A DNA stretch of 36,570 bases, from positions 1 through 36,570 of the forward strand of contig NZ_JAERMU010000027.1 in the NCBI RefSeq assembly GCF_016756775.1. The letters run 5' to 3'. The translations under genes and the position numbers were made by a program. The notes below the pieces were generated by a model that made no database searches, had not been told where the DNA came from, and saw only the letters and a list, made by a program, of their open reading frames with translations. Source of the DNA: Dryocola clanedunensis subsp. sulfonylureivorans. GTDB lineage: Bacteria > Pseudomonadota > Gammaproteobacteria > Enterobacterales > Enterobacteriaceae. How positions within the stretch are numbered: position 1 is the stretch's first letter; every line of letters begins with the position of its first letter. Positions 14,051 to 36,570 of this stretch are shown here, piece after piece.

Positions 14051-14370
14051 AACAATTTCCCTTCATTGAATGAATGGAGAGTTGCCCAAAAGAGTTTCAG
14101 GCGGGATCGAGTATACACAACTAAAGATGACAATCAGGGCGATGGGGAAATAGGTGGGCAGATTTAAGAAAAGTGGAAATAATAACCTCACAGGCTCATC
14201 AAATATAATATAAATACATACAAATTAGTAGCTTACTGATGCCATAAATAATACATATGATCTCATTAATCCTAAAATAACCCTGAGTGAATATGGGGCC
14301 ATCAATTCTTTTAGGATTAACCTCAGCGGGGAGGATTGCGGATATAACGAGGCAAGGGGAATTATCTTAT
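14051..14370 (-). promoter_or_regulatory. AT-rich upstream region of yjbEFGH with a 12-base inverted repeat
   Basis: This gene-free gap is very AT-rich at 14165-14280, unlike its neighbours. It must contain the yjbE promoter. A perfect 12-base inverted repeat TTAATCCTAAAA / TTTTAGGATTAA lies at 14266-14277 and 14309-14320. Read on the minus strand, TGAGGTTAATCCTA near 14311-14324 resembles the RcsAB box TAAGAATATTCCTA at 10 of 14 positions. E. coli yjbEFGH is Rcs-regulated, so this is a candidate site, but it is about 260 bases from the start codon. No -10/-35 pair could be fixed. Confidence 0.5.
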
Positions 14371-14402
14371 AAATAAGCCGGCGATATTTGCCGGCTTATT
14401 TT
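14371..14402 (-). terminator. Intrinsic terminator after pgi
   Basis: AAATAAGCCGGC (14371-14382) pairs with GCCGGCTTATTT (14390-14401) around a 7-base loop. The A/T arms provide a U-tract on either strand. It lies 18 bases after the pgi stop and probably ends pgi transcription before yjbE. Confidence 0.88.
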
Positions 14403-14419
14403 ATTTACAGCTTAGCTTA

Positions 14420-18111: not shown

Positions 18112-18140
18112 TATATGCCTAACTTGTTCACTTTGAGCAA

Positions 18141-18557
18141 GCCAGAAGAGGCGCGTCGTCCAGGTAGTGTGTTTGAGGAGCCAGTCCGCAGACAGCACAT
18201 GAGGGGGAACGACGCCGAGGTAACGCGCAGAAGGCAATGCGTTTTATCGGCTGCAGGGGCTGAATCCCCTGGGTTGTCACCAGAAGCGTTCGGCAGTCGG
18301 ACGTTTATACCCGAATTAATTGGCGTTGCAGCAAGGCAGCAAGCTAATGAATCCCGATGAGCTTACATAAGTAAGTGATTCGGGTGAGTCAGCGCAGACA
18401 ACGCCGCTGCAGCGTCAAGAAATCGGGTAGACAAGGTGGGGCGCTTCTGGGTGTATCCGTAGTTTTCCCTTCTACGTCTGCCCCGTATCCCGCTCTTCCC
18501 TTGTGCCAAGGCTGAAAATTTACCGCCATACGAATGGCCCCCTGACACGAGGTAGTT
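18141..18557 (+). ncRNA. Lysine riboswitch (L-box) leader of lysC, interrupted by an ERIC element
   Basis: The leader matches the E. coli lysC lysine riboswitch. P1 is CCAGAAG (18142-18148) with CTTCTGG (18444-18450). P2 is GCGTCGT (18153-18159) with ACGACGC (18209-18215). The core GAGGAGCCAGTCC, the P3 hairpin near 18221-18248, P4 CAGGGG/CCCCTG (18254-18259, 18266-18271) and P5 CACC/GGTG (18278-18281, 18435-18438) follow. The aptamer spans about 310 bases, against about 190 in E. coli, because an ERIC element lies in the P5 arm. The downstream expression platform, including the CCTTGTGCCAAGG hairpin (18499-18511) and the start-proximal ACACGAGGTAGTT, is conserved. Lysine binding in E. coli lowers lysC translation and promotes mRNA cleavage. 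Confidence 0.93.
18306..18429. repeat. ERIC (IRU) element in the P5 arm of the lysC riboswitch
   Basis: The central stretch GAGCTTACATAAGTAAGTGA (18358-18377) is the hallmark of ERIC sequences, and the flanks (GTTGCAGCAAGGC, GCTGCAGCGTC) also match the family. The ends TACCCGA (18308-18314) and TCGGGTA (18423-18429) are complementary. Inside, GGCGTTGCAGC (18322-18332) pairs with GCTGCAGCGTC (18406-18416), allowing two G-U pairs. CCCGA/TCGGG (18353-18357, 18380-18384) and CTTAC/GTAAG also pair. A TA occurs on both sides, as expected from target duplication. The length, about 122 bases, is close to the family's usual 127. Confidence 0.9.
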
Positions 18558-19913
18558 ATGTCTTATCCACAAACAGTAGTAGCCAAATTTGGCGGCACCA
18601 GCGTCGCGGACTTCGAGGCCATGAACCGCAGCGCCGACGTTGTGCTGGGCGATGCCAACGTTCGCCTGGTGGTGCTTTCCGCTTCAGCTGGCGTCACCAA
18701 CCTGCTTGTCGCCCTGGCTGAAGGCCTGGAAGCGACGGAACGCTTCGTCAAGCTCGACGCCATTCGCAAAATTCAGTACGACATCGTTGAACGCCTGAGC
18801 AACCCGCAGATTATCCGCGAGGAAGTCGAACGCCTGTTAGAAAACATCACTACCCTCGCCGAAGCCGCCTCGCTGGCGACCTCTACCGCGCTGACCGACG
18901 AACTGGTCAGCCACGGCGAACTGATGTCCACCCTGCTGTTTGTCGAGATCCTGCGTGAGCGTCAGGTTGACGCCCAGTGGTTTGATATCCGCAAAATCAT
19001 GCGCACCAACGACCGCTTTGGCCGCGCCGAGCCGGACGTTGCAGCCCTGGCGGAACTGGCGGAGCAGCAGCTACAGCCGCGTATCGCGGAATCTTTGATT
19101 ATCACGCAGGGCTTTATCGGTAGCGAAGCAAAAGGCCGCACCACGACGCTTGGCCGCGGCGGCAGCGACTACACCGCCGCGCTGCTGGGCGAAGCGCTGC
19201 ATGCCAGCCGAGTGGATATCTGGACGGACGTGCCGGGCATCTACACCACCGACCCGCGCGTGGTGCCTGCCGCAAAACGCATCGATAAAATCGGCTTCGA
19301 AGAAGCGGCAGAAATGGCTACCTTCGGGGCAAAAGTTTTACACCCGGCAACGCTGCTGCCAGCGGTTCGCTGCGATATTCCGGTCTTCGTCGGCTCCAGC
19401 AAAGATCCGCAGGCGGGCGGCACGCTGGTCTGCAACGAGACGGATAACCCACCGCTGTTCCGCGCGCTGGCGCTGCGCCGCAAGCAAACGCTGCTGACCC
19501 TCCACAGCCTGAACATGCTGCACTCCCGGGGTTTCCTGGCCGAAGTGTTCAGCATCCTGGCGCGCCATAATATCTCCGTCGACCTGATTACCACCTCGGA
19601 GGTGAGCGTGGCGCTGACGCTGGATACCACCGGATCCACCTCAACGGGCGACAGCCTGCTGACTACCTCGCTGCTCACCGAGCTGTCGTCCCTGTGCCGT
19701 GTAGAAGTGGAAGAGAATCTGGCTCTGGTCGCGCTGATCGGCAACAAGCTTTCCCAGGCCTGCGGCGTGGGCAAAGAGGTGTTTGGCGTGCTGGAGCCGT
19801 TTAATATCCGCATGATTTGCTACGGCGCATCCAGCTACAACCTCTGTTTCCTGGTGCCGGGCGGCGACGCGGAGCAGGTCGTGCAGAAGCTGCACCATAA
19901 TCTGTTTGAATAA
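18558..19913 (+). CDS. lysC: Lysine-sensitive aspartokinase III
   Basis: LysC phosphorylates aspartate, the first step towards lysine, diaminopimelate, methionine and threonine, and is feedback-inhibited by lysine. The product is 451 residues (449 in E. coli). The kinase domain starts with KFGGTS at residues 10-15 and includes TTLGRGGSDYTAALL and the substrate segment DELVSHGELMS. Two C-terminal ACT-type regulatory regions (from about 315) contain LLTLHSLNMLHSRGFLAEVF and SVDLITTSEVSVALTLD, which carry the lysine site in E. coli. The ATG at 18558 follows ACGAGGTAGTT. It is controlled by the upstream riboswitch and ends at a terminator. Confidence 0.99.
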   Translation: MSYPQTVVAKFGGTSVADFEAMNRSADVVLGDANVRLVVLSASAGVTNLLVALAEGLEATERFVKLDAIRKIQYDIVERLSNPQIIREEVERLLENITTLAEAASLATSTALTDELVSHGELMSTLLFVEILRERQVDAQWFDIRKIMRTNDRFGRAEPDVAALAELAEQQLQPRIAESLIITQGFIGSEAKGRTTTLGRGGSDYTAALLGEALHASRVDIWTDVPGIYTTDPRVVPAAKRIDKIGFEEAAEMATFGAKVLHPATLLPAVRCDIPVFVGSSKDPQAGGTLVCNETDNPPLFRALALRRKQTLLTLHSLNMLHSRGFLAEVFSILARHNISVDLITTSEVSVALTLDTTGSTSTGDSLLTTSLLTELSSLCRVEVEENLALVALIGNKLSQACGVGKEVFGVLEPFNIRMICYGASSYNLCFLVPGGDAEQVVQKLHHNLFE

Positions 19914-36455: not shown

Positions 36456-36570
36456 GAGCCTGGCAGTTCCCTACTCTCGCATGGGGAGACCCCACACTAC
36501 CATCGGCGCTACGGCGTTTCACTTCTGAGTTCGGCATGGGGTCAGGTGGGACCACCGCGCTAGTGCCGCC
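36456..36570 (-). rRNA. rrf: 5S ribosomal RNA (5' end cut off by the window)
   Basis: The minus strand carries the 5S rRNA sequence, nearly identical to E. coli along its length. Recognisable parts are CCCATGCCGAACTCAGAAGT and the 3' part GAGAGTAGGGAACTGCCAGG. About 115 of 120 bases are present; the first five fall outside the window. It is the end of an rrn operon reading towards metA, in the position of E. coli rrnE. The base after GGCGGCA is C, where E. coli has G. Confidence 0.97.

Follow-up and report, generated by a model that had tools for sequence, protein, structure and literature searches.

The leader of the aspartokinase III gene in the analysed window (the whole 36,570-nucleotide stretch of a Dryocola clanedunensis subsp. 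sulfonylureivorans contig) holds, with a probability of roughly 0.85, a lysC lysine riboswitch that has captured an ERIC element in its P5 arm, with its core unchanged and P1 still able to close. The Rfam covariance model RF00168 matched positions 18138-18298 at 67.6 bits, above its gathering score of 30, and the core was recognisable, in agreement with the preliminary description of this DNA, which had placed a lysine riboswitch ahead of lysC. The gene is presumably lysC, a name that we take from the riboswitch context and general knowledge. Relatives for comparison included the best 80 named lysC matches, which were 85-95% identical. The leader and the gene comprise the following features:

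18142-18148, plus strand: P1 5' strand CCAGAAG, pairing 7/7 with 18444-18450
18149-18277, plus strand: lysine aptamer core with P2, P3 and P4, from the RF00168 match
18278-18281, plus strand: P5 5' strand CACC, pairing with 18435-18438 in the P1-forced fold
18284-18306, plus strand: P5a hairpin of 9 bp (18284-18292/18298-18306), from the P1-forced fold
18306-18429, plus strand: ERIC element forming P5b, from the ERIC HMM, the fold and alignment with genomic ERIC copies
18308-18314/18423-18429 and 18320-18332/18406-18418, plus strand: outer and inner ERIC stems, from the P1-forced fold
18435-18438, plus strand: P5 3' strand GGTG, pairing with CACC in the P1-forced fold
18444-18450, plus strand: P1 3' strand CTTCTGG, fully complementary to 18142-18148
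18431-18504, plus strand: predicted anti-P1 (ligand-free) stem, a prediction of the free MFE fold only, with pairs 18431-18436/18499-18504, 18438-18443/18491-18496 and 18448-18451/18482-18485
18558-19913, plus strand: lysC, aspartokinase III, 451 aa, an open reading frame

The insert was identified with an ERIC profile of 127 match columns, built from 28 distinct ERIC stretches located elsewhere in the relatives. The profile matched the window P5 insert at 112.6 bits (E 3.5e-33, profile positions 2-116 of 127), compared with at most 9.1 bits among 2250 shuffles (single-base) of long P5 inserts. The earlier ERIC assignment is thereby upheld, and the copy is near full-length, its span set at 18306-18429 (124 nt). 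The ERIC termini pair with each other, and the right end reads GGGTAGA, compared with GGGTATA in many other copies; for this reason, of the TA flanks claimed earlier, a TA at each ERIC end stands and a target duplication is not clear. The ERIC folds into a long hairpin, and the window's entire P5 segment, comprising P5a and P5b, has an MFE z of -7.2. Against the ten E. coli records listed, the leader aligned in two pieces, with 421 query bases against 288-289 record bases, and the stretch skipped between the pieces is ERIC-sized. Searching the window's own genome with another ERIC as query revealed five ERIC-like places, and the lysC-leader ERIC is therefore not the sole ERIC of this genome.

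When P1 was forced in the window fold, P5, P5a and the ERIC stem formed together. This fold recovered the 9-bp hairpin, confirmed that the ERIC lies between the P5 strands CACC at 18278 and GGTG at 18435, and supports the three-way junction that a long ERIC hairpin had been proposed to create in P5. ERIC-free relatives also carry a hairpin at the place of P5a, and short P5s (<40 nt) folded as a single hairpin in 85 of 85 cases. In the P5 tip, ERICs lie directly before CAAGGTGG, at a TA wherever their ends are intact. We propose that the P5 base pairs close a three-way junction, with the old hairpin, P5a, as one branch and the self-folded ERIC, P5b, as the other. Pairing between the two ends of the ERIC would return the distal strands of P5 and P1 to a place beside the core, so that P1 could still close; if so, lysine control is predicted to persist. 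A delay is possible, as 124 extra nucleotides would be transcribed before the P5 and P1 3' strands emerge. To our knowledge, solved lysine riboswitches show no tertiary contact involving the P5 tip.

The Rfam fit of the window leader ends at 18298, inside P5, and closes P1 with a nearer 3' strand. The preliminary description had held that a fit using P5 strands other than those it named would speak against the insertion; the fit is literally of that kind, and we read it as an effect of insert length. The P1 closure near 18288-18298 was rejected on this ground, since the same short fits occur in ERIC-bearing relatives: RF00168 matches span 161-162 nt in ERIC-bearing L085, L025 and L120, and the 180, 181 and 193 nt matched in L290, L284 and L121 are too short for their long P5s. 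At the ERIC-free locus L088 of the same genus (genome G002), the match covers 193 nt at 95.2 bits. We judge the end at 18298 to be an artefact of the long insert. Both P1 strands are retained, as described earlier, and the distal strand is kept 7/7 in 6/6 distinct long ERIC-type leaders; L120 and L134, merged with others in this count, have both strands too. Across leaders, the P1 strands are identical in 143 of 152, and this near invariance accounts for the lack of covariation in P1.

Aptamer-only folds gave a P1 probability of 0.55 for the window and 0.06-0.99 for 11 relatives, values that are noisy, and 0.09 for the window with flanks joined. The full-leader probability was 0.00 in all 13 leaders folded, which is expected for the ligand-free state and lends no support to closure. 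In the free fold of the window, the P5 and P1 3' strands pair instead with 18482-18504, producing the anti-P1 stem. Part of a study of the E. coli lysC riboswitch reports a two-state layout (PMC5234074), and since the free fold yields an anti-P1 stem, a layout of this type seems to be kept in the window.

To place the insertion among relatives, we inspected six genomes of the window genus, from G000 (the window genome) to G005. An ERIC lies in the P5 of G000 and G004, G002 has a short P5, and no RF00168 match was found in G001, G003 or G005. G002 is identical over the lysC locus to a record named Cedecea colo, and shared sequence relates G001 to a record of Dryocola boscaweniae and G005 to a MAG labelled Buttiauxella. 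The insertion reading had presupposed ERIC homology in the region and ERIC-free relatives; both exist, and one such relative (G002) belongs to the same genus. Elsewhere in the genome, an ERIC of G004 corresponds to an empty site in G000, and ERIC places therefore differ between these sister species. Among 12 Buttiauxella genomes (the genus of G024; L228 is the record of B. agrestis ATCC 33320), P5 holds a full ERIC in two (L228, L231), a partly deleted ERIC form in one (L230), a minimal hairpin similar to the termini of the full ERICs in three (L227, L229, L236), another short hairpin in five (L232-L235, L237) and no hairpin in one (L226). The insertion is real, but its earlier portrayal was too narrow, the insert being common to the window, the sister species and two Buttiauxella genomes.

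In the ERIC tree, the copies of the window, G004, L025 and L231 form one clade (support 0.996) that is split by genus inside; 31 other ERIC rows (28 distinct), three other copies from the window genome and L121 fall outside it. A right end found in these four lysC ERICs and in none of the other aligned copies, CAAGAAATCGGG, pairs with their left end. When up to 14 candidates were scored in each of 60 genomes, no other ERIC copy came above 87%. The computation shows that the window and Buttiauxella lysC ERICs are of common ancestry. Independent insertions at a preferred TA, or exchange of leaders between the genera, would accommodate the higher identity between the window and L025 in the ERIC (94%) than in the aptamer (82%), as well as the lack of an ERIC in G002; the separate clade with its internal genus split, the common right end and the 87% ceiling for any other copy argue against both scenarios, which we consider unlikely. 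Inspection by eye showed that, close to the outer end of the ERIC stem, A-U in the window corresponds to C-G in Buttiauxella, and that L227 has A-U where L236 has G-C.

Comparing lysC leaders from related genera, suggested earlier as a way of dating the insertion, revealed ERICs in the P5 of other lineages too and short P5b hairpins as a common feature. In a second genus (g119, 37 genomes), P5 is short in 22 genomes, hairpin-type with 72-88 nt in 10 and 141-150 nt long in four. A further g119 leader, L286, was missed by the parsing pattern; by eye, its P5 is 155 nt long and its ERIC has the ends TACCC and GGGTATA, ending directly before CAAGGTGG. The ERIC profile scored 30.3 bits in L286, 26.7 in L290 and 25.0 in L284 and L291, and did not detect L288 or the ten shorter hairpin-type P5s of this genus, whose similar ends suggest that they, too, would be of ERIC origin. 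At 77.9 bits, G137 clearly carries an ERIC; it lies within a different P5, is unrelated to the others and branches elsewhere in the ERIC tree. L045 and L240 carry a 33-nt piece like two ERIC ends, at a score (10.5 bits) barely above shuffles. Overall, this shows that an ERIC was captured in the lysine riboswitch P5 more than once among related bacteria. The shorter P5 forms in Buttiauxella and g119 look like ERICs eroding to a P5b hairpin; in several lineages, the ERIC centre was apparently deleted and the paired ends kept.

There is about an even chance that Klebsiella, Cedecea and Kosakonia did not derive their short P5b hairpins from ERICs, and that P5b is older, with the ERIC inserted into it or replacing it. 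The ERIC profile left the short hairpins of these three genera undetected, and the window flank GGGTAGACAAGG is common to several short-hairpin Buttiauxella, both in favour of this view. Against it, many of the hairpins have terminal sequences similar to those of ERICs (TACCC...GGGT), and full, partial and minimal forms occur in Buttiauxella.

We then mapped where inserts fall across 257 loci, which were reduced to 170 distinct parsed aptamers after removing 34 duplicates and 53 unparsed loci (39 without an RF00168 match and 14 riboswitch loci missed by the patterns). The loci are a non-random sample, 80 being the best named lysC matches and 18 having been chosen chiefly because their riboswitch matches were weak or long. 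The P1-P4 length was 134-142 nt in 169 of the 170 aptamers, the remaining value (103, L154) being a mis-parse, and the P5 interior ranged from 24 to 220 nt. With up to 700 nt allowed between P1 and P5, ERIC matches fell in P5 in seven aptamers and upstream of P1 in 15, with none in P1-P4 and none downstream (at least 154 nt upstream and at least 267 nt downstream were covered), counts that are subject to the possibility that a P1-P4 insert breaking a riboswitch might go unseen by the Rfam search. Of the 14 riboswitch loci that were left unparsed, L286 has an ERIC in P5 and L141 one upstream. A P2-P4 placement of the ERIC in L113 and L141 was rejected, as the P1 anchor was wrong. The P5 matches come from three or more lineages and should not be counted as seven or eight events. 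Over 106 short-P5 leaders, P1-P4 contains 4.1 TA dinucleotides on average and P5 contains 0.65; being commoner in P1-P4, TA sites by their numbers alone fail to explain the P5 bias. On our preferred reading, the P5 tip tolerates such landings, being probably the only site of the aptamer at which an insert does little harm, and the hairpin is kept as an RNA stem.

Upstream of the aptamer, ERICs end 3-10 nt before P1 in ten leaders (L015, L016, L019, L021, L022, L023, L034, L113, L167 and L245), some of them in tandem; the window has a small hairpin there (18124-18140).

An ERIC that broke the riboswitch would have left lysC constitutive or otherwise controlled and the aptamer a relic. This account draws on the drop in Rfam score from the ERIC-free G002 to the window and on the dispensability of the riboswitch in this family, which follows from the three of six window-genus genomes and the 39 of 39 unparsed lysC loci searched that gave no RF00168 match (two pairs of these loci are from the same genome). 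It is nevertheless improbable, given that the P5 base and P1 strands are intact and that the window and G004 agree at 136/141 positions in P1-P4 and 121/122 in the expression platform, against 227/264 at fourfold lysC sites. The two genomes also agree at 116/118 positions in the ERIC and 144/156 upstream. For the window and Buttiauxella L025, the corresponding values are 111/118 in the ERIC, 116/141 in P1-P4, 109/121 in the platform, 103/156 upstream and 117/234 at fourfold sites. Conservation of the ERIC would suit either constraint on the element or later exchange.

Loci at which the riboswitch is seemingly absent from lysC include L005, L006, L014, L017, L041, L059 and L072, among others, and loci of this kind occur in Dryocola, Enterobacter, Citrobacter, Lelliottia and others. 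Four such Citrobacter loci carry an ERIC (L066:2286-2407, L068:2284-2406, L073:2278-2400 and L078:2182-2305), scoring 67.7-78.1 bits and located 94-319 bases before the start of the lysC match. By eye, ends like those of ERICs are also present in L018, L029 and L032, which gave no profile match.

With fixed P5 ends put on each interior (ends that 169 of the 170 parsed leaders possess), a three-way junction closed by P5 formed in 51 of 63 distinct P5s of at least 50 nt, one of which (L055) is spurious and comes from a locus without a riboswitch, compared with 1308 of 6300 dinucleotide shuffles. The median energy z of the 63 was -4.0, and 12 of them do not fold as a three-way junction. When P5b arms were swapped within sets picked by lineage (49 loci, 48 distinct; other long P5s, among them L121 and the L242 clade, lay outside these sets), an arm's own partner was better than that of other species in 47 of 48 cases (11/11, 12/13 and 24/24). 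An RNAalifold analysis of ten g119 P5s kept the base of P5b, but double-sided changes affected only 2 of 18 pairs, including one in P5a. On the lysC tree, which includes as a hairpin leaf the spurious P5 of the riboswitch-less locus L070, P5b presence (49 of 122 scored leaves) required nine changes, compared with a mean of 38 over 500 label shuffles.

The computation demonstrates the ERIC homology of the insert, its position and the conservation of pairing across species; from this we infer transcription of the leader RNA, lysine binding and switching, and selection that keeps P5b. A tentative extension, to which we give somewhat less than even odds, is that ERICs were repeatedly domesticated as a riboswitch subdomain and trimmed to a co-evolving P5b that tunes aptamer folding, for example through later synthesis of the 3' strands of P5 and P1 or through a more stable P5. 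There is just under an even chance that the riboswitch works and that the ERIC and the P5b hairpins are passengers without effect, which persist for want of anything that removes them and whose arms are kept complementary by palindrome-driven template switching. Many lineages lack P5b (73 of the 160 leaves of the lysC tree have a short P5), and shortened forms and absence are both common, as expected of a neutral element. The complementarity of the arms despite their divergence, and an ERIC that differs at only 2 of 118 positions between sister species, count against neutrality, although a mutational cause could account for either.

The captured ERIC sets this leader apart from known systems. 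The window resembles the E. coli lysC lysine riboswitch (RF00168) in having an aptamer ahead of lysC, in which P1 is predicted to switch against the expression platform; unlike it, the window P5 has a 124-nt ERIC stem and a three-way junction, and P1 would close over about 295 nt. According to part of one source, ERIC (also IRU or RU-1) is an enterobacterial repeat of 127 bp that has inverted termini, is bounded by TA and yields a structured transcript (PMC2229807). The window copy differs from a typical one in lying inside a regulatory RNA domain and in its altered right terminus, which pairs with the left. As recounted in portions of two papers, Yersinia ERICs are transcribed within mRNAs and affect mRNA stability via an RNase E site (De Gregorio 2005, cited in PMC2229807 and PMC10969869); in these portions they are co-transcribed with flanking genes or lie at gene 3' ends, in contrast to the window ERIC in a 5' leader aptamer. 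A section of PMC10969869 regards it as conceivable that MITEs form riboswitches, and it also notes that BOX elements may contain T-box motifs. Titles and abstract beginnings among the matches listed for open-licence literature, a body outside which most subscription papers fall, held no report of an ERIC or MITE in a riboswitch.

The origin of new riboswitch arms is seldom visible, though arm length varies. Here, the path from mobile repeat to arm is readable, because full, part-deleted and minimal forms of what looks like a single repeat occupy one arm in related species, and if the domestication proposal is true, it would provide a traceable route from a mobile repeat to a regulatory RNA part. 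As a natural experiment, the insertions also bear on how much length a peripheral arm can gain before ligand sensing fails. As to annotation, the standard family model sets a wrong end point for ERIC-bearing riboswitches.

Other RNA genes were detected alongside the lysC leader. The enterobacterial sRNA STnc430 (RF02053) matched window positions 14247-14408 at 84.3 bits and was also present in 14 of 20 and 15 of 20 of the relatives' lysC loci searched in two sets. A 5S rRNA, cut by the window edge, occupies 36458-36570 on the minus strand, and three genomes (G051, G149 and G184) have two lysine riboswitch matches.
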